44,119 nucleotides of DNA. Origin: Oscillospiraceae bacterium. Its GTDB lineage: Bacteria; Bacillota; Clostridia; Oscillospirales; Oscillospiraceae. Of this stretch, positions 17,824 to 41,515 are shown piece by piece. The notes under the pieces were generated by a model. It was not told the DNA's origin. It saw only the letters and a program-made list of their open reading frames with translations, and searched no databases. Position 1 is the first letter of the stretch. Every line of letters begins with the position of its first letter. The stretch spans positions 1-44,119 of the forward strand of contig JAFRDM010000018.1 in NCBI GenBank assembly GCA_017403885.1, given 5' to 3'. Made by a program: the position numbers and the translations under genes.

Positions 17824-18017
17824 CGACGGATCGATGCGATCACACATTTTTTCAACTGATACGACAAAGAAAAAGCGCGTGCGCGTCAATTGTTTTGCTT
17901 TTTTGCGCCGCCCGTGAGAGAAGACGGTATATTCCGTGATGAGAAAACCGGACCTGTTTTTCCATTTTCCGGCAATTTGCGCAGTTTTGGGAGTATCTTC
18001 TTGAGCAGATTAGCCCC

Positions 18018-18046
18018 TTGCCATTTCCCGTGCGGTATGATATGCT
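18018..18046 (+). promoter_or_regulatory. Candidate promoter of the nrfA-ccs genes
   Basis: TTGCCA (18018-18023), 17 bases, TATGCT (18041-18046), giving a leader of about 120 bases. No clear FNR or NO-sensor operator was recognised. Confidence 0.5.
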
Positions 18047-18059
18047 ATAAACGGGTAAA

Positions 18060-18101
18060 GGCGGATTTGCCGCCGCGTCTGGGAGACGCCGCGCCGTTTT
18101 T
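18060..18101 (+). promoter_or_regulatory. Two hairpins and a T-run in the nrfA leader
   Basis: GGCGG/CCGCC (18060-18064 with 18070-18074) is followed directly by GCGTCT/AGACGC (18075-18080 with 18084-18089) and, seven bases on, five T (18097-18101). The arrangement resembles an attenuator or a 5'-stabilising element. Confidence 0.4.
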
Positions 18102-18173
18102 CCCCTCCGCATACGCATCCCCTTTTCATCATGCCGCGCCGCTGACGGCGGGGCGATCGTGAGGAGATCGATT

Positions 18174-19781
18174 ATGAGAAAAATGACCATGAAACAGAGA
18201 AGGATGGCTGATATCGTCGGCCTCGCCTGCGGCGTGCTTGTGCTGATCGTCGGCATCGTCTTCGCCGTTTTGAAAGCGATGCCCGCCACCGTCGGCGCCA
18301 GCGCCGGAGACATCCCTGCCACTGCCCGGCACCTGAGCGGCACGGCCGAGGGCCGCAACGGGCCCATCGAGGTCGAAGTCGTCGCCGACGAGAACAAGAT
18401 CTATCAGATCAACGTCGTCTCCCACTCCGAGACCGACGGGATCGGCAGTGTCGCCGTCGAAAAGCTGCCCGGTATGATCTTCGAGGCGCAGAGCCTTGAG
18501 GTCGATTCCGTTGCGGGCGCAACGCTGAGCTCCGACGGCATCAAGGCGGCTGTGCTCAATGCCATGGAAAACGGCGGTCTGTCCACGGACGGCTTCGGCG
18601 GAGAAAACGTTGTCGCCGCGTCGCCCGTCAAGATGGCCTCCCGGGTCGTGACCAATTCCGGCGTCACGGTCGTTCATGCGGCCGACTGGGCGGAGCAGTA
18701 CCCCAACGAATATAACTCCTGGCTCATGACGAGAGAGAGCGACGACATCGACGACTACCTTGAGATCTATCCCATGCTCCGCACGCTCTACGAGGGCTAC
18801 GGCTTTGCCATCGATTACGGCAGCGCCCGCGGCCACTACTACGACGTGCAGGACATCGAGGCCACCGGCCGTCCCCATCCGCTCGCCAACTGCTGGACCT
18901 GCAAGACTCCGGACTTCACCATCATGGTGAACGAGGAGGGCGTCTCCGCCTACAAGAAGAGCTGGACGGACGTTCAGGCCGAGATCACCGAAGGCATCAG
19001 CTGCTACAACTGCCACGCCAACACGCCCGAAGAGATCGTCGTCACGCACACCTACTGGATCGACGCGCTCGGCGAGGACTTTGACAGCGTTGCCGGCGCG
19101 AACCTCGCCTGCGGCCAGTGCCACAACGAGTATTACTTCGCTCCCGACACAAAGGCGACCACGATCGCCCACAACAGTCTCGAGAGCATGGCACCCGATC
19201 AGATGCTGGCCTTCTTCAACGACCCGGCCAACTTCTCCAACGGCGAGGCCTTTGCCGACTGGACCAATCCCCGCACCGGCGTGCGGCAGATCAAGGTGCA
19301 GCATCCCGAATTCGAGACCTTCCTCGGCAAGGGCAGCCAGCACGCGAACGACTTTACCTGCGCCGACTGCCACATGCCCGACGCGGTGGCCGAGGACGCG
19401 ACGGAATACCGCAGCCACAACCTCGTCAGCCCGCTTGACAATCCCGATCTGATCGAAAAGACCTGCTCGCAGTGCCATACCGATCTCAAGAGCGAGGTCC
19501 GCGCCGTGCAGCAGAAGGTCGAGGATCGCACCTACTCCATCGGCTATGAGCTCGAGTATCTCACCGAGCTGCTGGCCGACGCGGTGGAGAGCGGCGAATA
19601 CACCGATGCCGATCTCGCGCGCGTCCGCGCCCTGGCCCGCAACGCGCAGTTCTACTGGGATTTCGTCTTCGTGGAGAACGCCGAGGGCGCGCACAACCCG
19701 ACGTTGACCTACGAGTGCCTTGACAAGGCCGAAGAGCTCTGCAACCAGGCGCTGAATCTGCTCAAAGCGCTGACCGCATAA
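18174..19781 (+). CDS. nrfA: FMN_bind-NrfA fusion: ammonia-forming pentaheme cytochrome c nitrite reductase
   Basis: Residues 14-36 form a membrane anchor. Residues about 55-135 are an FMN_bind domain as in RnfG/NqrC (GRNGPIEVEVV, SETDGIGSVAVEKLPG), ending in DSVAGATLSS, where T117 matches the Thr that ApbE flavinylates; Ala replaces the usual Ser/Thr three residues before it. The rest is NrfA, reducing nitrite to ammonium outside the cell: catalytic heme CWTCK (240-244) with Lys ligand, and four CxxCH hemes at 277, 313, 396 and 431. Active-site R219, Y320 and H377 and calcium ligands E319, K374 and Q376 (KVQHPE) are in place. ATG 18174 has GAGGAG upstream; a GTG at 18159 is less likely. No NrfH gene is adjacent, so the flavin may feed the hemes. 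resB and ccsA follow. Confidence 0.93.
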   Translation: MRKMTMKQRRMADIVGLACGVLVLIVGIVFAVLKAMPATVGASAGDIPATARHLSGTAEGRNGPIEVEVVADENKIYQINVVSHSETDGIGSVAVEKLPGMIFEAQSLEVDSVAGATLSSDGIKAAVLNAMENGGLSTDGFGGENVVAASPVKMASRVVTNSGVTVVHAADWAEQYPNEYNSWLMTRESDDIDDYLEIYPMLRTLYEGYGFAIDYGSARGHYYDVQDIEATGRPHPLANCWTCKTPDFTIMVNEEGVSAYKKSWTDVQAEITEGISCYNCHANTPEEIVVTHTYWIDALGEDFDSVAGANLACGQCHNEYYFAPDTKATTIAHNSLESMAPDQMLAFFNDPANFSNGEAFADWTNPRTGVRQIKVQHPEFETFLGKGSQHANDFTCADCHMPDAVAEDATEYRSHNLVSPLDNPDLIEKTCSQCHTDLKSEVRAVQQKVEDRTYSIGYELEYLTELLADAVESGEYTDADLARVRALARNAQFYWDFVFVENAEGAHNPTLTYECLDKAEELCNQALNLLKALTA

Positions 19782-19799
19782 TGACCTGACCCTTTTTGT

Positions 19800-19829
19800 A
19801 AGCTGCCCGCCCGACTGGGCGGGCAGCTT
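19800..19829 (+). terminator. Hairpin between nrfA and resB
   Basis: A 13-bp stem (19800-19812 with 19817-19829), four-base loop and a short T-run. resB starts 30 bases later with no clear promoter, so this is probably a partial terminator that keeps the biogenesis genes lower than nrfA. Confidence 0.8.
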
Positions 19830-19858
19830 TTCACGATTATCTTGAAAAAGGAGCGCTT

Positions 19859-21112
19859 ATGAAAAGAATACTCGCTTATCTGCGCTCCATGCGCTTCGGC
19901 ATATTGCTTCTGGTGCTGATCGCGGCCTGCTCGGTGGTCGGTACCGTGATCCCGCAGGAACGGGAGGTCGCCTGGTATGCGCAGACCTACAGCTCCTTCC
20001 ACGGGGCGATCCTGCTGCTGCGCTTTGATCGCATCTTCACGAGCTGGTATTTCATCCTGCTGCTCGGATTGCTCGGGCTCAATCTGACGCTGTGCAGCAT
20101 CCTGCGCGTCGCCTCGGTCGTACGCGCGGCGAAGAGCGAAAGCGAGCGTACCGCCCATCTGCGCGATACGGTCCTCCTCACGCCGGAGGGCGTGGCCGCG
20201 CTGCGGGACAAGCTGCTCGGCATGCGCTGCCGCGTCGAGAAGCTCGGCGAATGCGAGGTCTTCACCAAACGCAGTCTCGGACGCTACGGCACGTTTCTGA
20301 CGCATCTGGCCATTCTGCTCACGCTGGTGTTCGGCGCGCTCGCGCTCTATACCCCCACGGTGACGGATCAGCGCTGCATGCCCGGCGAGTCGATCCGCAT
20401 GAGCGACGGGACTGAGATCTGGGTGCAGGATTTCCGTATCACGGACGAGACGGGGCGGCTGGACTACACCAGCCATATCCGGATCACGCTGCCCAACGGC
20501 AGACGCAGCGAGATCGCCGAGCTGAAGGTCAACCATCCCTTCCGTTTCGGAGGCTGCAAGCTCTTTCAGCAGAGCTTCGGCACAGCCGGCTCGGTGACCG
20601 TGACAAATCTTGAAACGGGCGGCAGCGACGTCTTTCTGCTGGACGAGATGAGCTATCTGACCATCGACAGCCGAAACGCCATCGTCTTTGAGCAGCTTTA
20701 TCCGGACTTTCTGCGCGCTCCGGACGGCGAAGTCACGCTCATCACGCGCACCGAGGGCGCATACCCCAATCCGATCTACGCCTTTGAGATCCTGGCCGAC
20801 GGGGAGTACACGCCCTCGCTGGCCGTCCCAGGGGATTCGCTGGAGATCCTGGGTCTGCGCTTCACCTTCAACACGCCGGTGGACTATCCCGGGCTGCGCA
20901 TCAAGCAGGTCCCGACCCTGCTCAATTCGCTGCTCATCGCGGCGTTTTGTCTGATGATCCTCGGGCTGTTCATCACCTTCTTCTGTGAACCAGTCGCCGT
21001 CAAGCTGGACGCGGAGGGCTATGCCGTCGGCGGCCCGAAGCCCGAGCGCATGCGCGTCGAGCTTGCCGCGTTGGATGAGAAATATCTTCGGGAAGGGGAG
21101 AAAGAGACATGA
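19859..21112 (+). CDS. resB: Cytochrome c biogenesis protein ResB/Ccs1
   Basis: ResB/Ccs1 works with CcsA in system II, moving heme out and joining it to apocytochrome CxxCH sites. The 417-residue protein has the family N-terminus (LRSMRFGILLLVLIAACSVV), a second helix pair (about residues 55-80), a third after LGRYGTFLTHLAILLTLVFG, a large external domain with NHPFRFGGCKLFQQSFG, and a last helix (LLNSLLIAAFCLMILGLFIT). AAAGGAGCG precedes the ATG. It overlaps ccsA by four bases. Its only visible client is the NrfA protein upstream, which needs five hemes, including one on a CxxCK site. Confidence 0.92.
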   Translation: MKRILAYLRSMRFGILLLVLIAACSVVGTVIPQEREVAWYAQTYSSFHGAILLLRFDRIFTSWYFILLLGLLGLNLTLCSILRVASVVRAAKSESERTAHLRDTVLLTPEGVAALRDKLLGMRCRVEKLGECEVFTKRSLGRYGTFLTHLAILLTLVFGALALYTPTVTDQRCMPGESIRMSDGTEIWVQDFRITDETGRLDYTSHIRITLPNGRRSEIAELKVNHPFRFGGCKLFQQSFGTAGSVTVTNLETGGSDVFLLDEMSYLTIDSRNAIVFEQLYPDFLRAPDGEVTLITRTEGAYPNPIYAFEILADGEYTPSLAVPGDSLEILGLRFTFNTPVDYPGLRIKQVPTLLNSLLIAAFCLMILGLFITFFCEPVAVKLDAEGYAVGGPKPERMRVELAALDEKYLREGEKET

Positions 21113-21897
21113 AGACCCTGTTTTTCGCGGCCTTCGCCGTCTATGCGGTCTCGGTCGTGCTGGAGTTCACAGGCACGGCCTTCAAAAAGGAAAAGCTGCT
21201 CCGCGCGGCATGGATCGTCTTTCTCGCGGCCTTTGCGCTGCATACGATCTTTTTCATCGCCCGCGGTGTTGCGGCGAGAAGACTGCCGCTTTCCAATCAG
21301 TTTGAGTTTGCCAACGGATTTGCCTGGGGCGCGGCGCTTCTGTCGATCGTCGTCTGCGGCCGCGGCAGGGCAGACTGGCTGAAGATCGCGGCGCTGCCCG
21401 CGGTGCTGCTGATCATGACTTACGCGGCGCTCCAGCCGATGGAGATCCGCGACCTGATGCCCGCGCTGCGCAGCGCGTGGTTCGGCGTGCACATCGGCTC
21501 GGCGGTGCTCGCCTATGCGGCCTTTGTCATCGCGGGCTGTATCGGCGTGCGCTACCTGGTCTTTTCCAAACGGGAGGAGCCGGACAATAAAGCGCTCGAT
21601 CAGATGGATTATCTCAGCTATCGTCTGGTGAGCTTCGGCTTCCTGTTCCTCACGGTGGTGATCCTCTCCGGCGCGATCTGGGCCGAACAGGCCTGGTCGA
21701 GCTTCTGGAGCTGGGACCCGAAGGAGGTCTGGGCGCTGATCACCTGGATCATCTACGCCGTTTACCTGCACCTGCGCCTTCGCGGAAAGCATCGGGGAAA
21801 GAAAATGGCGCTGTTCCTTGTCGTAGCCGTTTTTCTCGTCTTCTTCACTTTTGCCGGCGTGAACACGCTGATGCACGGCATGCACACCTACGGCTGA
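21109..21897 (+). CDS. ccsA: Cytochrome c biogenesis protein CcsA/ResC
   Basis: CcsA is the heme-handling partner of ResB. The 262-residue multi-helix membrane protein has the tryptophan-rich WWD segment (WSSFWSWDPKEVWALITW) that presents heme at the outer face, plus conserved His in GVHIGSAVLAYAAF and near the C-terminus (MHGMHTYG). It starts in the ResB stop codon (ATGA). Attachment to a CxxCK heme often needs a dedicated CcsA-type lyase in other bacteria (NrfE or NrfI), so this pair may be specialised for NrfA; that is inference from position. Confidence 0.93.
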   Translation: MKTLFFAAFAVYAVSVVLEFTGTAFKKEKLLRAAWIVFLAAFALHTIFFIARGVAARRLPLSNQFEFANGFAWGAALLSIVVCGRGRADWLKIAALPAVLLIMTYAALQPMEIRDLMPALRSAWFGVHIGSAVLAYAAFVIAGCIGVRYLVFSKREEPDNKALDQMDYLSYRLVSFGFLFLTVVILSGAIWAEQAWSSFWSWDPKEVWALITWIIYAVYLHLRLRGKHRGKKMALFLVVAVFLVFFTFAGVNTLMHGMHTYG

Positions 21898-23666: not shown

Positions 23667-24893
23667 ATGAACGGTATTTGTGTCAAAAGCGAGATCGCGC
23701 CGCTGAAAAAGGTGCTGCTGCACCGCCCCGGAGAGGAGCTTCTGAAGCTGACGCCGAAGCGCCTGCCGGAGCTGCTCTTCGATGACATCCCTTTTTTGAA
23801 GGTCGCCCAGCGCGAGCATGACGCCTTCGCCGCCATCCTGCGCGAAAACGGCACGGAGGTCGTCTATCTCGAGGATCTGATGACCGAGGTGCTCGCACTC
23901 CGACCGGAGCTTATCCGCCCCTTCCTCTATCAATGGCTGACCGAGGGCAATATCCGCACCGGCAAATGGCAGGACAAGCTCTGCGACTATCTGCTGGAAA
24001 ACTATTCCGGCAAGGCGCTGGTGAAAAAGACGATGGAGGGCATCACGCTCAAGGAGATGGGCGGGGCCTCGGCCTATTCGCTGCAGGACCGCATCGCCCC
24101 TGCCGATGATCTGATCGTCGACCCGATGCCCAACCTCTATTTCGCCCGCGATCCCTTCGCGTCAGTCGGAACGGGCGTTTTCCTCAACCGCATGCGCTTC
24201 CCTACGCGGCGCCGCGAGACGATCTATGCGGAGTATGTCTTCAACTATCACCCGGACTATTCCTCCGTCCGCCGTTACTGCAAGCGGGACGATCACGCCA
24301 GCATCGAGGGAGGCGACGTGCTCAATCTCACGGCGGACACGATCGCGATCGGTATCTCCGAGCGCACCTCGCCCGACGGCATCGAAAACGCCGCAAGGCG
24401 GCTCTTTTCCGACCAGGATGCCACGGTGCGGACCGTGCTGGCCTTCGATATCCCCGCTACCCGCGCCTTTATGCATCTCGACACGGTCTTTACGCAGATC
24501 GACACCGACAAGTATATCGTCCATCCGGCCATCATCGGTCCGCTGACGGTCTATGAGATCACGCCCGGTGCAAAGGACCCGGCCGATCTGCATATCGAGA
24601 GAGTCGACGCTCCGCTCGAGCGCATTTTGGAAAAGTATACCCATACCGAGTGCGTGAAGCTGATCTACTGCGGCGGCGACGACATGATCGCCGCGGCGCG
24701 CGAGCAGTGGAACGACGGTTCGAACACGCTGGCGATCGCGCCGGGAAAGGTGGTCGTATACGAACGCAACGACGTGACCAATCCCATCCTGCGCGACAAC
24801 GGCATCGAGATCCTGGAAATGCCCTCGGCCGAGCTATCCCGCGGCCGAGGCGGCCCCCGCTGCATGTCCATGCCGCTCATCCGGGCGGAATAA
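23667..24893 (+). CDS. arcA: Arginine deiminase
   Basis: ArcA hydrolyses arginine to citrulline and ammonia, the first step of the arginine deiminase pathway. The 408-residue protein has all catalytic residues of the family: D162 in FARDPF, E214 in SIEGGDV, H270 and D272 in MHLDTVF, and nucleophile C399 in RGGPRCMSMPLIR. GGAGGG precedes the ATG. It lies between argS and the ornithine carbamoyltransferase gene with short gaps, so the three form one unit. Confidence 0.96.
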   Translation: MNGICVKSEIAPLKKVLLHRPGEELLKLTPKRLPELLFDDIPFLKVAQREHDAFAAILRENGTEVVYLEDLMTEVLALRPELIRPFLYQWLTEGNIRTGKWQDKLCDYLLENYSGKALVKKTMEGITLKEMGGASAYSLQDRIAPADDLIVDPMPNLYFARDPFASVGTGVFLNRMRFPTRRRETIYAEYVFNYHPDYSSVRRYCKRDDHASIEGGDVLNLTADTIAIGISERTSPDGIENAARRLFSDQDATVRTVLAFDIPATRAFMHLDTVFTQIDTDKYIVHPAIIGPLTVYEITPGAKDPADLHIERVDAPLERILEKYTHTECVKLIYCGGDDMIAAAREQWNDGSNTLAIAPGKVVVYERNDVTNPILRDNGIEILEMPSAELSRGRGGPRCMSMPLIRAE

Positions 24894-24917
24894 ATACGTT
24901 TTGGAGGAAAAAACGAA

Positions 24918-25910
24918 ATGGGACTGAATATCAGAGGCAGAAGCCTTCTTACCCTGCTGGACTATACGCCCGAGGAGATCGAGTATCTTCTTGATCTCGC
25001 GGCGGAGTTCAAGCGCATGAAGTACAACGGCGTCGAGCACAAATGGCTCACGGACAAGCAGATCGTGCTGCTGTTCGAGAAGACCTCCACCCGCACCCGC
25101 TGCTCCTTCGAGGTCGCGGCGCGCGATCTGGGCATGGGCGTCACCTTCCTCGACCCGGGTTCCTCGCAAATGGGCAAGAAGGAATCCATTGCCGACACCG
25201 CCAAGGTGCTCGGCAGAATGTACGACGGCATCGAGTACCGCGGCTTCAAGCAGTCCACGGTCGAGGATCTGGCAAAGTACTCCGGCGTGCCGGTTTGGAA
25301 CGGCCTGACCGACGATTTCCATCCCACGCAGATGCTCGCGGATATCCTGACCGCGCGCGAGGAGTTCGGCGATCTCAAGGGTCGTAAGCTGACCTTCTTC
25401 GGCGACGCGCGCAACAACGTCGCCAACTCTCTCATGGTCGTTTGCGCCAAGCTGGGCCTGCATTACTGTGCCTGCGGCCCGAAGGAGCTGATGCCTGCCG
25501 AGCGGCTGATCGAAAAATGCCATGAGATCGCCGGCGAGACCGGCGCGGTGCTGGAGTTCACAGAGGACCCGGCGCAGGGCGCAAAGGACTGCGACATCCT
25601 CTACACCGATATCTGGCTGTCGATGGGCGAACCGGCTGAGCTGTGGGAGCAGCGCATCAAGCTCCTGCTGCCCTATCAGGTCAACGGCGCGCTGATGGAG
25701 AAGGCAAAACCCACGGCCATCTTCATGCACTGCCTGCCTGCCTTCCATGACCGCATGACCACCGTCGGCGAGGAGATCTATCAGAAGTTCGGGCTTGACG
25801 CCATGGAGGTCACCGACGAGGTGTTCCTCGGCAGCCATGCGCGTCAGTTCCGCGAGGCGGAGAACCGCATGCACACGATCAAGGCCGTCGTCTACGCGAC
25901 GCTCAAGTAA
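24918..25910 (+). CDS. arcB: Ornithine carbamoyltransferase
   Basis: The 330-residue enzyme interconverts citrulline plus phosphate with ornithine plus carbamoyl phosphate. Visible motifs: carbamoyl-phosphate loop STRTRCSFE (57-65), FHPTQMLAD (134-142), the SMG loop DIWLSMGE (231-238) and HCLP (271-274). Its position directly after arginine deiminase points to the catabolic role (arcB) and not to biosynthesis (argF), although the two cannot be separated by motif. GGAGG precedes the ATG. Carbamate kinase, the ATP-yielding third step, and an arginine/ornithine antiporter are not in the window. Confidence 0.94.
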   Translation: MGLNIRGRSLLTLLDYTPEEIEYLLDLAAEFKRMKYNGVEHKWLTDKQIVLLFEKTSTRTRCSFEVAARDLGMGVTFLDPGSSQMGKKESIADTAKVLGRMYDGIEYRGFKQSTVEDLAKYSGVPVWNGLTDDFHPTQMLADILTAREEFGDLKGRKLTFFGDARNNVANSLMVVCAKLGLHYCACGPKELMPAERLIEKCHEIAGETGAVLEFTEDPAQGAKDCDILYTDIWLSMGEPAELWEQRIKLLLPYQVNGALMEKAKPTAIFMHCLPAFHDRMTTVGEEIYQKFGLDAMEVTDEVFLGSHARQFREAENRMHTIKAVVYATLK

Positions 25911-35049: not shown

Positions 35050-37842
35050 ATGAAACCAATCAACCGGAAGCTGCGTGCGCTGCTGTGCCTGCTGCTGTGC
35101 GCCGCCATGCTTGGTTCGCTTGCCGTTGTGGCGTATGCCGAAACGGCGACGGCCAAGGTGACCGGCCAGTTCCGTTATACCGAAGCACGCAGGATGCTTA
35201 CGATGATCAATCAATTCCGCACCGGGTCGGACGCCTGGTACTGGAACAGCGACGACAAGACCAAGACCGTCTGCAGCAATCTGGGCGAGCTTTCATACGA
35301 CTACGCGCTCGAAGAAATCGCCATGAAGCGCGCGCGGGAGCTGGCGCTCTATTACAGTCATACCCGCCCTACCGGTCAGGACTGCTTTACGCTGAGCTCC
35401 GACGGCGTGCAGAGCTGGGGAGAGAATATCGCCTACGGCCAAGGGAGCGCCGAAGAGGTTTTTATCGACTGGCGCGAGGACAACGACAGTTATTTAGGAC
35501 AGGGCCATCGCCGCAACATGCTCAATTCCAGTTTTAACGCGGTCGGCTTCGGCTGCTTCTATCACAAGGGCGTGCTGTATTGGGCCCAGGAATTCGGCCG
35601 TTCGCAGAGCGGCCGCGGCGCGCCGACAGCCAATGAGAACGACGTGACGGGCTATGTGGACTATTCCACGGATCTGGTGGACTGGTCGAATGAGTATAAC
35701 GGGAGACGGACGCATTGGCAGCTGAAAACGGTCGACGGCACGGCCATAGGTTTTCAAAACTATTCGGGTACGCCGCTCTTCTTTCTTTTTCACCAAGACA
35801 GCTGTTCAAATTGCGAATATATGCTTCCGGAGCTGGCCGAGGCCGACTGGGTCGGCCGCGACATCACCGTCATCGCGGTGGACATCGCTCACAGCAGCGT
35901 GTCGGATATCCGGACGCTCCGCGACTCGCTGCCCAATCACGGCGCGTCCATGATCTTCACCGCCGACGAGGGAGACAGCCCGGACGGATACTACCTGATG
36001 TGGGATTTCCTGCGGAGCTACGGTCTTACCAGCGTATATCTGCCGGCCTGCGTCGTCGTCATTGACGGCGTGGCGATCGACTATTGGGGCGGCTACTCTA
36101 CGGCGGACGAATGCAGAGAGCGGCTTGAGGCTGACGGCGTGCTGCAGTCAAAGCCGACGATCACGACACATCCGTCAAACAAGACCGCAGCGGCAGGCTC
36201 GACCGTGAAATTCACGGTGGGAGCGAGCAACGCGACGAGCTACCAGTGGCAGTACCGTACGTCAAGCAGCGGAAGCTGGAATAACTGCAGCGGAAACACT
36301 GCCAAAACCAATACGCTTTCCGTTACGGCAGAGAGCTACCGGAACGGATACCAATACCGCTGTAAAGTATCCAACAACGCAGGTACCGTGATCTCGAATG
36401 CGGCGACCTTAACGGTGAACAGCAAGCCGACGATCACGACACAGCCGACAAACAAGACTGCAACGGCAGGCACGACCGTGAAATTCACGGTGGGAGCGAG
36501 CAACGCGACGAGCTATCAGTGGCAGTACTATGCGTCGAGTACAGACGGATGGAAGAACTGCAGCGCGAGCTCGGCGAAGACGGCGACCCTATCCATTACG
36601 GCAGAGAGTTACCGGAACGGATACAAGTATCGCTGCAAGGTCACCAACAGCGTGGGAACGGTAACCTCCAACGCAGCGACGCTGACCGTGGCATCCAACG
36701 GAAAACCGACCATTCTGACACATCCCTCAGGACAGACGAGTACTGTTGGCGGCACCGCAAAGTTTTCGGTAGAGGCGAACGGCTCAAATCTGAAGTATCA
36801 GTGGCAGTATTACGACAGTTCATCAGGCACATGGGCAAACGTGACAAACAGCGCGTACACGGGGCTGACGAGCGCGACGATGAGCGTCCCGGTGACAGCG
36901 GGAAGGAATGGGCTTCGGTTCCGGTGCAAAGTATCCAACTCGAACGGGACTGTCTACTCCAACTCCGCAACGCTGAAAGTTAAGCCGACGATCACAACTC
37001 AGCCTTCAAGCAAAACCGCGGCGGCAGGAACGACCGCGACGTTCACGGTGGCGGCGAGCGGCCCGAACCTGAGCTATCAGTGGCAGTATTACGACAGCTC
37101 CAGCGGCAGCTGGGCCAGCATCACGAACAGCGCGTACACGGGGTTGACGAGCGCGACCATGAGCGTACCGGCAACTATGGGAAGAAGCGGCATGAAGTTC
37201 CGGTGCAAAGTGTCCAATGCGAACGGCACGGTTACCTCCAACTCGGCAACGCTGACAGTGACGAGTGACAGCAAGCCGACGATTACGACGCAGCCTTCAA
37301 GCAAGACTGCGGCGGCGGGGACGACCGTGACGTTCACGGTGGGGGCGAGCGGCGCGAATCTGAGCTATCAGTGGCAGTATTACAACAGCTCGTCGGGCAC
37401 GTGGTCGAATCTCACGAACAGCGCATACACGGGGCTGACGAGCGCAACGATGGGCGTACAGGCAACTGCGGGAAGGGACGGCTTGAAGTACCGCTGCAAG
37501 GTGACCAACGCCGCAGGATCAGTCTATTCTGATCCTGCCACGCTGACGGTGGTCACACAGCCGAACATTACCAGCTATTGTTCAAGCGTGACCACGAGCT
37601 GCGAGGGGACGGAAGAATTCTATGTCGAAGCCAACGGCGGCGGATTGAGTTACCAGTGGCAATATTCTGCTGACGGCGGAAATACCTGGGGGAACATCAC
37701 AAACTCCAGTTACAGCGGCATCCATTCCAGCGTCCTGAGCGTACCGGCCACTTTCTCCCGCAGCGGGTATCAGTTCCGCTGCAAAGTGTCGAACGCAGTA
37801 GGCACAATCTATTCTCCGGCTGCAACTCTGACGGTGGGATAA
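35050..37842 (+). CDS. Secreted CAP-domain, thioredoxin-like, Ig-repeat protein
   Basis: The 930-residue product has a signal peptide cut after about A30. Residues 45-185 are a CAP/SCP domain with H104, E125 (WGENIA) and H153 (GHRRNML). Residues about 220-365 look thioredoxin-like: FFLFHQDSCSNCEYMLPELA with C252-x-x-C255, and P332 in the cis-Pro position (YLPACVVVIDG). Six Ig-like repeats of about 90 residues follow, starting with KPTITTxP and containing SYQWQY and YRCKVSN. The protein ends on the last repeat; there is no LPXTG sorting signal, SLH domain or anchor. It is probably released or held by the repeats. AGGAAAAGG precedes the ATG. Two related genes follow. The fold calls are strong for CAP and the repeats, moderate for thioredoxin. 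Confidence 0.85.
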   Translation: MKPINRKLRALLCLLLCAAMLGSLAVVAYAETATAKVTGQFRYTEARRMLTMINQFRTGSDAWYWNSDDKTKTVCSNLGELSYDYALEEIAMKRARELALYYSHTRPTGQDCFTLSSDGVQSWGENIAYGQGSAEEVFIDWREDNDSYLGQGHRRNMLNSSFNAVGFGCFYHKGVLYWAQEFGRSQSGRGAPTANENDVTGYVDYSTDLVDWSNEYNGRRTHWQLKTVDGTAIGFQNYSGTPLFFLFHQDSCSNCEYMLPELAEADWVGRDITVIAVDIAHSSVSDIRTLRDSLPNHGASMIFTADEGDSPDGYYLMWDFLRSYGLTSVYLPACVVVIDGVAIDYWGGYSTADECRERLEADGVLQSKPTITTHPSNKTAAAGSTVKFTVGASNATSYQWQYRTSSSGSWNNCSGNTAKTNTLSVTAESYRNGYQYRCKVSNNAGTVISNAATLTVNSKPTITTQPTNKTATAGTTVKFTVGASNATSYQWQYYASSTDGWKNCSASSAKTATLSITAESYRNGYKYRCKVTNSVGTVTSNAATLTVASNGKPTILTHPSGQTSTVGGTAKFSVEANGSNLKYQWQYYDSSSGTWANVTNSAYTGLTSATMSVPVTAGRNGLRFRCKVSNSNGTVYSNSATLKVKPTITTQPSSKTAAAGTTATFTVAASGPNLSYQWQYYDSSSGSWASITNSAYTGLTSATMSVPATMGRSGMKFRCKVSNANGTVTSNSATLTVTSDSKPTITTQPSSKTAAAGTTVTFTVGASGANLSYQWQYYNSSSGTWSNLTNSAYTGLTSATMGVQATAGRDGLKYRCKVTNAAGSVYSDPATLTVVTQPNITSYCSSVTTSCEGTEEFYVEANGGGLSYQWQYSADGGNTWGNITNSSYSGIHSSVLSVPATFSRSGYQFRCKVSNAVGTIYSPAATLTVG
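36151..37839 (+). repeat. Ig-like repeat array 1 (six units)
   Basis: Units begin at about 36151, 36424, 36703, 36982, 37273 and 37555. Units 1-2 are of the short subtype (NATSYQWQ, TAESYRNGYQYRC); units 3-5 are of the long subtype (NLSYQWQYY, NSAYTGLTSATM, GRNGLKFRC); unit 6 is divergent. Similarity holds at DNA level. Confidence 0.85.
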
Positions 37843-37979: not shown

Positions 37980-38050
37980 TGTAATGCGTAATAATGTGTA
38001 TAAGTCTGCCGGATTTATCAATTTATAGTATTATACTGGGATGTGATCGT

Positions 38051-41000
38051 GTGAAGAAAAGACTCTTTTCCTTTCTGCTGTGCCTGGTTATGTGCCTCTC
38101 ACTGCTTCCTGTGAGCGCCGCGGCCGATGGGATTGCCATCGACGCCTCGCACTTTCCGGACAGCAAGTTCCGCGCCCAGATTATGGCCTGTTATGACAAA
38201 GACAGCAACGGCCGGCTAGATGAGACCGAGATCTCCGCAGTGAATGATATTAGCTGTTCAGACTCCGGTATTTCCACGCTGCAAGGAATTGAATTCTTCA
38301 CAGAGCTGTATTATTTAGATTGTTCCTCCAACCAGTTGACTTCACTGGATGTGTCGAATAACACAAATCTACAGCAATTGTTTTGTCATAATAACAAGTT
38401 GACATCATTGAACTTGCTGCAGAACACGAATTTGCAGGTTCTGGTTTGTTCCAACAACCGGCTGACTTCGCTGGATATGAGTGCAAGCGATGAACTGAAA
38501 ACTCTGAGTTGCGACAGAAATCAATTAACAAAGCTGAGTATCAGCGGCTGCTATATCCTTAATGGTCTATACTGCGGTTACAACCGACTGAGCTCATTGG
38601 ATGTTAGCACTAACACGGAACTGGTTGCCTTGAGTTGCGAGGGAAACCAACTGTCATCTTTGGACATATCGAACTGTCCGAAGCTCGCAGAATCTGTAAT
38701 GTATGGAACACAGACGAAAGATGATGAAACGGGTATCATCACATATAGATATCAAGGTTCATCGTCATTGACCGTCGATAGCAATGTGGAGATCTACACT
38801 GTCGCGCCTGTCAGTTTCTACATTAACGAAGACTGTGTTCCGGACGCTGTGTTCCGGGAGATTATCCGCGGACTCGATACCAATGGAGACGGTATCATGA
38901 GCGAGGAAGAGATTGCTGCGGTCATAAGTATGAATTGCTCGGGAAGAAATATTTCGTCTTTACAGGGTGTTGAGCATTTCACGTCGCTGAAACATCTGTA
39001 TTGCGATGGCAACCAGCTGACAACATTGGATGTAAGCAATTGTACCGAACTGGAGACGCTGGATTGCCGCAACAACCGGTTGACGTCGCTGGATGTGACC
39101 GGCTGCTTGATGCTGAAAAAGTTGTACTGCAGCGGAAACCAGCTAATGCTGCTGGATGTGTCGAATTGCTCTGCACTCATCGACGCTGTTCAAAATGGCA
39201 CACAAGTAGATAACGAGTATATCAATGGGAATAACACACTGAAACTGGACAACGAAGTCTTTATTCTCATGGTTCCCATCATAATTACCATGTCACCGCA
39301 ATCCGTTGTACTAGCAGAAGGGAATACTGCGACGTTCCAGGTGGAAGCTATCGGTTCAAATCTGCGGTATTGTTGGCAGTCATGGAGTAATGCCTCACAA
39401 GAGTGGGTCGATTCTTCGCACACCGGGAGCACGAAGGCGACCATGAGCATTCAGGTTTCTGGGGATTTCATGAACGGGATGCAGTTCCGCTGCAAGGTTT
39501 ACAATGGATTTGCAACTGAATACAGCGATGTGGCATTGATAAAGATAAAACCTTTGATCACAGAGCAACCGAAAGATAAGACGGTCTCCTATTACAGCTC
39601 GGCAACCTTTATCGTGAGCGCGTCTGGACCGGATCTGCAGTATCAGTGGCAGTATTACAGCAATACGCACGGTAAATGGTACAACATTAAAAGTTCCGAC
39701 TACTCGGGGGTCAATGGCCCGACGATGGACATTATTGCCACCAACAGATGGAACGGCTATCGGTATCGGTGTAAGATTTCAAACGTGAACGGAACAGTCT
39801 ACAGCAACTCGGCGACGCTGAAGGTGAAGCCGGCGATCACGATGCAGCCGAAGACAGCCACAACAGCGGCTGGCAGCACGGCGTCTTTCACAGTGAAAGC
39901 GAACGGACCGGATCTAAAGTATCAGTGGCAGTATTACAGCAGCGCCTCCGCAAAATGGATGAATATCACGAACAGCGATTATTCGGGCCAGAAGAGCGCG
40001 ACTCTGAGCCTTTCTGCGACTGCAGCAAGAAATGGCTTGAAGGTCCGTTGCAAAGTATACAACGCAAACGGCACAGCGTACAGCAACCCGGCGACACTAA
40101 TGGTAAAGCCTGCGGTCACAACGCAGCCAGTGTCGGTCACGGTGGCGGCAGAAAGTACGGCAACATTCACGGTGGCGGCGAGCGGCCCGAATCTGAGCTA
40201 TCAGTGGCAGTATTACGACAGCTCGAGCGGCAGCTGGGCGAACGTGACGAACAGCGCATACACGGGGCTGACGAGCACATCAATGGGCGTTCCGGCGACC
40301 ACGGGCCGCAACGGTCTAAAGTTCCGGTGCGCCGTGTCCAATGCGAACGGCACGGTATACTCCAACTCGGCAACGCTGAAGGTTAAGCCTGCCATTACGA
40401 CGCAACCCTCGAACAAGACGGCAGCGGCGGGAACGACAGCAACGTTCACGGTGGCGGCGAGCGGCCCGAATCTGAGCTATCAGTGGCAGTATTACGACAG
40501 CTCGAGCAGCAGCTGGGCGAACGTGACGAACAGCGTATACACGGGGCTGACGAGCGCGTCGATGGGCGTTCCGGCGACCGCGGGCCGCAACGGTCTGAAG
40601 TTCCGGTGCGCTGTGTCCAACGCCAACGGCACGGTATATTCCAACTCCGCGACGCTGACCGTGACGTCGGGCAGCAAACCGACGATCACGACGCCGCCTT
40701 CGAACAAGACGGCCGCGGCGGGAACGACAGCAACGTTCACGGTGGGAGCAAGCAACGCGACGAGCTATCAGTGGCAGTATTACGACAGCTCGAGCGGGAG
40801 CTGGGCGAACGTGACGAACAGCGCATACACGGGGCTGACGAGCGCGTCGATGGGCGTTCCGGCGACCACGGGCCGCAACGGACTGAAGTTCCGGTGCGCC
40901 GTGTCCAACGCCAACGGCACGGTTACCTCCAACTCTGCCACGCTGACCGTTACGTCGAGCGGCAAGCCGACAATCACGACTCAGCCTTCCAACAAGTCTG

Positions 41001-41515
41001 CGGCCCCCGGGGCGACGGTCACCTTCACGGTGGCGGCAAGCAACGCGACGAGCTACCAGTGGCAGTTCCGTCCCTCGAGCGCCGACGGCTGGAGCAACAG
41101 CAGTGCAAGCTCCGCCAAGACAGCAAGCTTCACCGTCACGGCCGAGAGCTACCGCAACGGTTACCAGTACCGCTGCAAGGTGTCGAACGCGAACGGCACC
41201 GTGTACTCCAACGCCGCCACGCTGACCGTTACGTCGAGCGGCAAGCCCACGATCACGACGCAGCCTTCCAATAAGTCCGCGGCAACCGGCGCGACGGTCA
41301 CCTTCACGGTGGCGGCAAGCAACGCGACGAGCTATCAGTGGCAGTTCCGTCCCTCGAGCGCCGACGGCTGGAGCAACTGCAGCGCCGCCTCCGCCAAGAC
41401 AGCAAGCTTCACCGTCACGGCCGAGAGCTACCGCAACGGCTACCAGTACCGCTGCAAGGTGTCCAATGCAAACGGCAGCGTGTACTCCAACGCCGCGACG
41501 CTGTTCGTGAGCTGA
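38051..41515 (+). CDS. Secreted EF-hand, leucine-rich-repeat, Ig-repeat protein
   Basis: I start it at GTG 38051, which gives a clean signal peptide (KKRLFSFLLCLVMCLSLLPV, cut near residue 24); an ATG at 37994 would add 19 residues ahead of it. The product has 1154 residues. An EF-hand loop (DKDSNGRLDETE, 49-60) leads into leucine-rich repeats of about 21 residues (LTSLDVSNNTNLQQLFCHNN type, a Cys in most). A second EF-hand loop (DTNGDGIMSEEE, 276-287) leads into a shorter set, so the head is an internal duplication. Eight Ig-like repeats follow to the end. No sorting signal is seen. The LRR part is clearly more AT-rich than neighbouring genes, which suggests a different origin from the Ig part. 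Adhesion or host-interaction roles are inferred. Confidence 0.85.
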   Translation: MKKRLFSFLLCLVMCLSLLPVSAAADGIAIDASHFPDSKFRAQIMACYDKDSNGRLDETEISAVNDISCSDSGISTLQGIEFFTELYYLDCSSNQLTSLDVSNNTNLQQLFCHNNKLTSLNLLQNTNLQVLVCSNNRLTSLDMSASDELKTLSCDRNQLTKLSISGCYILNGLYCGYNRLSSLDVSTNTELVALSCEGNQLSSLDISNCPKLAESVMYGTQTKDDETGIITYRYQGSSSLTVDSNVEIYTVAPVSFYINEDCVPDAVFREIIRGLDTNGDGIMSEEEIAAVISMNCSGRNISSLQGVEHFTSLKHLYCDGNQLTTLDVSNCTELETLDCRNNRLTSLDVTGCLMLKKLYCSGNQLMLLDVSNCSALIDAVQNGTQVDNEYINGNNTLKLDNEVFILMVPIIITMSPQSVVLAEGNTATFQVEAIGSNLRYCWQSWSNASQEWVDSSHTGSTKATMSIQVSGDFMNGMQFRCKVYNGFATEYSDVALIKIKPLITEQPKDKTVSYYSSATFIVSASGPDLQYQWQYYSNTHGKWYNIKSSDYSGVNGPTMDIIATNRWNGYRYRCKISNVNGTVYSNSATLKVKPAITMQPKTATTAAGSTASFTVKANGPDLKYQWQYYSSASAKWMNITNSDYSGQKSATLSLSATAARNGLKVRCKVYNANGTAYSNPATLMVKPAVTTQPVSVTVAAESTATFTVAASGPNLSYQWQYYDSSSGSWANVTNSAYTGLTSTSMGVPATTGRNGLKFRCAVSNANGTVYSNSATLKVKPAITTQPSNKTAAAGTTATFTVAASGPNLSYQWQYYDSSSSSWANVTNSVYTGLTSASMGVPATAGRNGLKFRCAVSNANGTVYSNSATLTVTSGSKPTITTPPSNKTAAAGTTATFTVGASNATSYQWQYYDSSSGSWANVTNSAYTGLTSASMGVPATTGRNGLKFRCAVSNANGTVTSNSATLTVTSSGKPTITTQPSNKSAAPGATVTFTVAASNATSYQWQFRPSSADGWSNSSASSAKTASFTVTAESYRNGYQYRCKVSNANGTVYSNAATLTVTSSGKPTITTQPSNKSAATGATVTFTVAASNATSYQWQFRPSSADGWSNCSAASAKTASFTVTAESYRNGYQYRCKVSNANGSVYSNAATLFVS
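39272..41512 (+). repeat. Ig-like repeat array 2 (eight units)
   Basis: Units begin at about 39272, 39548, 39827, 40106, 40385, 40676, 40964 and 41243. Units 1-5 are long subtype, 7-8 short subtype. Unit 6 is a hybrid: first half as in short units (GASNATSYQWQ), second half as in long units (YYDSSSGSW, NSAYTGLTS). Units 4 and 5 and units 7 and 8 are nearly identical in DNA. Confidence 0.87.

Follow-up and report, generated by a model that had tools for sequence, protein, structure and literature searches.

How does a cytochrome c nitrite reductase receive its electrons when its own chain begins with a flavin-binding domain? NrfA is one of the main enzymes of nitrate ammonification, and the donors that textbooks give for it, NrfH and NrfB/C/D, tie it to the quinone pool. 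The question is raised by a gene on a contig of an Oscillospiraceae draft genome (GCA_017403885.1, JAFRDM010000018.1, positions 1 to 44,119; this whole stretch of 44,119 nucleotides is called the window below). A preliminary description of this gene had suggested that a covalent flavin on the same chain delivers the electrons, perhaps from an Rnf/Nqr-like chain, and that NrfH is bypassed.

The fusion gene (18174..19781, plus strand) is open throughout and encodes 535 amino acids when counted from the ATG at 18174, a GTG at 18159 being a second possible in-frame start upstream. Its product joins a membrane anchor, an FMN_bind domain and a pentaheme cytochrome c nitrite reductase. Both domains are matched by their Pfam profiles, which upholds the single continuous frame proposed at the outset, and the membrane anchor was recovered as a predicted N-terminal helix at residues 6-35 (18189..18278, +) from the AlphaFold2 secondary structure and a hydrophobic stretch. 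The AlphaFold2 model of the complete chain has a mean pLDDT of 80.7 and a pTM of 0.72; its best fold matches are NrfA proteins (E. coli and others), FMN_bind domains are matched as well, and the RnfG of Azotobacter (8ahx_G) is a weak match (E 0.034). A promoter-like site (9 of 12) lies at 18018-18046, upstream of the gene.

The fusion is a recurrent architecture. A protein database search for the two domains on one chain, as the preliminary description had advised, found both on 114 of the 120 homologues listed, out of 2594 significant ones. Eighty loci were kept from public genomes, 274 of which encode a relative; these loci are mostly titled Clostridia, and their NrfA carries a short FMN_bind N-terminus, carries an RnfG-like N-terminus or stands alone. 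Assemblies with the fusion have record titles that mention goat, sheep, roe deer and water buffalo among others. A tree of 85 NrfA rows, from which L046 was omitted because its frame is cut by a contig end, comprises 43 rows with the short FMN_bind N-terminus (including the window), 34 unfused rows and eight RnfG-like ones; of the latter, five were tested against the NCBIfam profile, with four over the cut-off, and L051, L052 and L057 were labelled by their likeness to L049 and L053. The architecture changed at least nine times on this tree (mean of shuffled labels, 33). When 391 genomes were drawn evenly from the class, NrfA was found in five, the window's genome included, and no second fusion appeared among these 391, the other four NrfA frames being too short (410-451 amino acids); within the class the fusion is thus rare, and what is known here of its spread comes from the public-genome loci only.

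The FMN_bind domain (PF04205) occupies residues 60-132 (18351..18569, +) and scores 57.4 bits against a Pfam cut-off of 22. Its closest solved relatives are 8p2b (40% identity) and 8p2a, domains of multi-flavinylated proteins. The flavinylation motif D111-SVAGA-T117 fits D-x-x-x-G-A-T, with T117 (codon at 18522..18524, +) as the predicted FMN attachment site, in line with the near-canonical DSVAGAT site proposed earlier. In an alignment of the window protein with 78 hand-chosen proteins of the 120 listed (A1), this threonine is kept in all 75 rows in which the column is filled, the four gapped rows of the 79 (P0097, P0099, P0101 and P0109) being forms without an FMN domain, and E86, T87 and G91 are kept in 74 of 74 rows. 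The ratio dN/dS against six relatives ranges from 0.20 to 0.59 in the FMN part and from 0.06 to 0.30 in the NrfA part; on these sequence comparisons, the FMN domain is under purifying selection. The window protein falls short of the full RnfG profile (24.6 bits, cut-off 102). A search for apbE in the same genome, also advised in the preliminary description, gave one match (247.7 bits), on contig C38 (G000:C38:5596-6420).

The catalytic half is a complete NrfA, as had been claimed. It matches Cytochrom_C552 (PF02335) over residues 170-533 (18681..19772, +) with 264 bits (Pfam cut-off 24.1), and all five heme motifs were located on the plus strand: CWTCK, the active-site heme motif with a lysine ligand, at residue 240 (18891..18905), CYNCH at 277 (19002..19016), CGQCH at 313 (19110..19124), followed by E319-Y320, CADCH at 396 (19359..19373) and CSQCH at 431 (19464..19478). 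The protein also carries all ten key residues. By alignment with Wolinella NrfA, we take R219, E319, Y320, K374, Q376 and H377 to have catalytic or calcium-binding roles, with Arg, Tyr and His presumably catalytic and Glu, Lys and Gln presumably forming the calcium site, and we take H221, H390, H415 and H507 to be the distal heme ligands, H390 being offset by one position in the pairwise alignment with the Wolinella enzyme. These catalytic and heme-ligand residues are well conserved, the ten being identical in 79 of 79 close rows (A1). Among the 85 more diverse rows of the tree, R219, Y320, H377 and K244 are invariant, H390 is missing in one FMN-fused row and H507 falls in a gap in one row. 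The calcium site is altered in ten of the 85 (nine unfused rows and the FMN-fused L050; E319 to D, K374 to M, Q376 to N), all of which retain the catalytic Arg, Tyr and His; NrfA activity may therefore differ in L065, the eight other unfused rows and L050. A K-x-Q-H-P motif is missing from the NrfAs of L050, L062, L064-L068, L070, L073 and L075. The window protein stays below the curated NCBIfam cut-offs for NrfA (218.8 against 595 for NF008339, 178.2 against 692.5 for TIGR03152), and we take these two models, an equivalog and an exception model, to describe narrower NrfA groups.

Downstream lie a resB-like gene for cytochrome c maturation by System II (19859..21112, +) and ccsB of the ResC type (21109..21897, +), a heme handling and ligation protein that exceeds its NCBIfam cut-off. 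A resB gene follows nrfA in 75 of the 80 loci, and two of the five exceptions (L019 and L061) end at a contig edge. In Wolinella, the CxxCK heme is matured by a CcsAB-type protein, according to passages of PMC12285233, so the ResB/CcsB pair probably serves the window's NrfA. Inspection by eye shows a GC-rich hairpin with four T behind it at 19800-19833, in the gap that separates nrfA from resB; a rule-based scan of 17900-20000 accepted no terminator, this hairpin included. The window's nrfA is adjacent to neither rnf nor apbE. Elsewhere in the window, argS is followed by genes for arginine deiminase and ornithine carbamoyltransferase, an arginine fermentation set (23667-25910), and two large proteins with immunoglobulin-like repeats, probably surface proteins, are encoded at 35050-37842 and 37994-41515, one of them containing a CAP domain and the other leucine-rich repeats.

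Candidate donors were surveyed in 50 genomes: the window's draft genome (1.98 Mb, 91 contigs) and 49 from the loci, a non-random panel of mostly larger contigs that covers all architectures. The window's genome is 77.5% complete, so that its absences are soft. NrfH, the usual quinone-oxidising partner of NrfA, was sought elsewhere in the genome, together with a NapC-type protein that might replace it. Neither was found: NrfH/NapC (PF03264) has no match in any of the 50 genomes, with a positive E. coli control, which supports the proposed bypass of NrfH in genomes with this NrfA family. ApbE is present in 44; the six genomes lacking a match include G008 and G009, which have 12 and 14 FMN_bind matches, respectively, and thus point to incomplete assemblies (probably draft gaps). 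RnfD/NqrB is found in 48, all except G043 and G044, a count that is weak by itself since Rnf is probably common in the lineage whatever its NrfA. UbiA, the prenyltransferase step of quinone synthesis and here a single marker, is over the cut-off in only seven genomes (any match in 12; 14 of 14 control genomes positive) and has no match in the window's 77.5% complete draft. Most panel genomes thus seem quinone-free, and menaquinone-linked extracellular electron transfer is disfavoured as the donor. The NapH-like Fer4_5 is found in 35 and DUF4405 is over the cut-off in eight. Among the 33 genomes with a fused NrfA, the counts are 32 for RnfD, 28 for ApbE, 22 for Fer4_5, seven for DUF4405 over the cut-off, six for UbiA over the cut-off and none for NrfH. 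The window's genome has a full rnfCDGEAB set (contig C66), and its only FMN_bind matches are RnfG and the window's NrfA. Molybdopterin oxidoreductases have no match in 34 of the 50 genomes. The window's genome is one of these 34, so that its likely substrate is nitrite rather than nitrate, and a tie of FMN-NrfA to a nitrate reductase of its own was rejected.

Closer links between NrfA and Rnf emerge from the related loci. The NrfA N-termini of L041 (136.8 bits), L049 (144.3), L053 (120.2) and L069 (229) exceed the RnfG cut-off of 102, and that of L048 (92.5) is under it. Unfused NrfAs are encoded within rnf operons at three loci. In L059, the order is rnfC, rnfD-rnfG, rnfE, rnfA, rnfB, nrfA, resB, ccsB, with six bases between rnfB and nrfA, and the RnfG part of this operon is the only FMN_bind match in the genome. 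L061, which is cut at both contig ends, retains part of rnfG, then rnfE, rnfA, rnfB and nrfA, and L065 reads rnfCDGEAB, tatA, tatC, nrfA, resB, ccsB, with a changed calcium site in its NrfA. As L059 and L061 are close kin, these operons represent about two independent cases. In L059, RnfD and RnfG share one open frame (L059:4297-5832), in which Ser replaces Thr in the flavin motif of the RnfG part.

FMN_bind domains can also be repeated before NrfA, with three in P0009 and P0012, five in L069 (L069:6297-9491) and P0210, and six in P0204; judged from sequence, such rows may form a covalent flavin wire to the heme enzyme. The gene apbE lies upstream of nrfA in L062, L064, L067, L069 and L073. 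In the genome of the L069 RnfG-NrfA (G043), RnfD is without a match and UbiA has two, so that RnfG-NrfA of this type may use another donor.

Several other arrangements were noted in these loci. L049, L051, L052, L053 and L057 have an RnfG-like NrfA fusion, then a second, unfused nrfA, then resB. A tatC-like gene lies directly upstream of unfused nrfA in L062, L064, L065, L067 and L073 (tested in L065 and assigned by sequence likeness in the other four, with a tatA-like gene in L064 and L065). This position is odd, as Sec is the usual export route of c-type cytochromes, which pass through it unfolded. P0206 consists of two complete NrfA units in tandem with ten heme motifs and no FMN domain; a cytochrome c3 domain in place of FMN was considered for this protein and rejected, the region being these two units. 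Finally, a reductase with FMN_bind and FAD_binding_2 domains (L011:5829-7838) is encoded directly upstream of an FMN-NrfA gene, and FMN_bind frames of similar length adjoin the fusion in L004, L016 and L025.

The best explanation of these data, and in our view a likely one, is that electrons pass from ferredoxin through Rnf and a covalent flavin to NrfA and nitrite. The RnfG-NrfA fusions, the rnf-nrfA operons and the near-constant presence of RnfD/NqrB make an Rnf-type chain the best-supported form of the Rnf/Nqr-like donor first suggested; the electron route itself we infer from gene content. The substrates of Rnf are ferredoxin and NAD+. In the description given by PMC8238504 (passages on Rnf), the complex takes electrons out of the cytosol to an outer-face flavin and then returns them to a substrate in the cytosol. 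In the proposed route, reduced ferredoxin would feed RnfB, and the electrons would be carried through the membrane to RnfG and its extracytosolic flavin. From there they would pass to the FMN on NrfA, in place of returning to NAD+ via RnfD and RnfC, and then along the heme chain to nitrite, six per molecule. Rnf would thus act as an outlet to nitrite, with only the outward half of its circuit in use, and the neighbouring ResB/CcsB would attach the hemes, the lysine-ligated one included. The route would serve as a sink for electrons and would also detoxify nitrite; a role as electron sink or in defence against nitrite and NO fits as well as one in energy conservation. Taken more broadly, the loci suggest, at somewhat better than even odds, a quinone-free anaerobic respiration in gut Clostridia that runs from ferredoxin through Rnf and one to six FMN domains to NrfA and reduces nitrite to ammonium, with Rnf as the transmembrane outlet towards a terminal reductase and with an inlet added to NrfA several times independently.

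The FMN domain might instead relay electrons to NrfA from a membrane protein other than Rnf, either a NapH-like iron-sulfur protein or another flavin-associated one (DUF4405 type). NapH-like proteins are known flavin partners (PMC8238504, in the parts on such systems), the window's genome is one of 35 in the 50 that encode a Fer4_5 membrane protein (on contig C62), Fer4_5, FMN_bind and ApbE are clustered in G027, and in G028 nrfA and a Fer4_5 gene are some 3 kb apart. However, Fer4_5 is missing in 11 of the 33 fused genomes and DUF4405 is over the cut-off in seven, against 32 for RnfD, and the RnfG fusions and rnf operons favour Rnf, so that we regard such a donor as unlikely. The Fer4_5 protein of the window's genome (L093:7304-9215, G000:C62) adjoins a redoxin gene, which suggests thiol chemistry; it is perhaps a thiol reductant for cytochrome c maturation. 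Still less probable is that the FMN domain persists as a relic or as a purely structural spacer, with some soluble donor feeding NrfA. Five close relatives (L026, L031, L032, L033 and L038) do have an NrfA without the FMN part, but the constancy of T117, E86, T87 and G91 in every filled row, a dN/dS below 1 and the multiplication of FMN domains up to six in relatives all speak for a retained function. As for an assembly join between a flavoprotein gene and nrfA, the origin of the window in a draft of 91 contigs gives it a negligible residual probability; the same fusion in many separate assemblies rules it out.

A further reading concerns physiology rather than wiring. The enzyme may chiefly remove nitrite, NO or hydroxylamine as stress protection, with the flavin still as its inlet and the system not respiratory, a view to which we assign slightly less than an even chance. 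It is consistent with the gene for Hcp, a hydroxylamine reductase, upstream in L049 (755.6 bits, cut-off 367), and with the 34 genomes that have no molybdopterin oxidoreductase match and hence no nitrate reductase of that kind. Placement in rnf operons and rows of flavin domains suggest instead a steady electron flow, and if neighbours supply the nitrite that is reduced, protection and respiration would both benefit. Stress protection and the electron route from Rnf to NrfA do not compete.

Compared with the NrfAs of NrfHA and NrfABCD systems (Wolinella 1fs7, E. coli 1gu6, Desulfovibrio 2j7a), the window protein shares the pentaheme fold, the CxxCK motif, the Arg/Tyr/His set and the His ligands; unlike them, it is predicted to be membrane-anchored and carries an FMN_bind domain, and its genome has no NrfH/NapC match. 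A covalent-flavin domain on an extracytosolic reductase is also found in the FMN_bind-linked FrdA of Listeria and UrdA of Shewanella, where this domain fills the role of the cytochrome domain of related enzymes (PMC8238504, in its passages on these enzymes); the catalytic part of those enzymes is a flavoprotein, whereas that of the window protein is a multiheme nitrite reductase. The reductase encoded beside the fusion in L011 is a protein of this FMN_bind-linked kind. The nearest precedent comes from Meheust et al. 2021, whose text on Fig. 6H mentions that some RnfGs of Christensenellales are multi-flavinylated and bear a multi-heme cytochrome domain, left unnamed, and proposes for them a second outer-side outlet from Rnf (PMC8238504). 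In these proteins, flavin domains, here of the RnfG type, likewise share a chain with hemes. In contrast, the window protein lacks an RnfG N-terminus and its FMN_bind domain is single, and the passages concerned in PMC8238504 name neither the heme domain nor nitrite reduction. The Christensenellales multi-heme RnfGs are probably related to the fusions described here and likely kin of L069. MmcA of Methanosarcina acetivorans, which to our knowledge has no FMN domain of its own, offers a further comparison. This multiheme cytochrome c is encoded with rnf and passes on Rnf electrons but, unlike the window's NrfA, has seven hemes, is related to octaheme tetrathionate reductases and reduces methanophenazine or extracellular acceptors (PMC11024163, in the passages on MmcA).

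By term search, the only nitrite reductase in the main text of PMC8238504 is NirS with NapH-like systems, nitrite has no match in its 2024 follow-up, and FMN and Rnf have none in the NrfA papers searched, where a lone flavin match is unrelated. An NrfA fused to FMN or RnfG is not named in the open literature searched (most subscription papers lie outside it), including passages of PMC12285233, PMC10716430, PMC8840924, PMC12780646, PMC6479175, PMC11334425 and PMC11024163, and the single-FMN form of Oscillospiraceae is not described in it either. The initial impression that no example had been described thus stands in part: within these sources, none names the heme part as NrfA or reports the single-FMN form, and the Christensenellales proteins had already been mentioned. 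Meheust et al. 2021 hence made a partial prior sighting, and the NrfA identity and the single-FMN form appear new.

To conclude, if a covalent flavin and Rnf do feed this enzyme, NrfA can work in quinone-free fermenters, and nrfA genes from the rumen would be no simple sign of respiration through quinones. In ruminants, methane formation faces competition from nitrite and hydrogen sinks, so that a nitrite sink linked to ferredoxin would be of consequence for models of electron flow in the rumen. The bacterial Rnf would gain a terminal acceptor on its outer face, and a well-known enzyme of the nitrogen cycle would be wired differently in rumen-type Clostridia.
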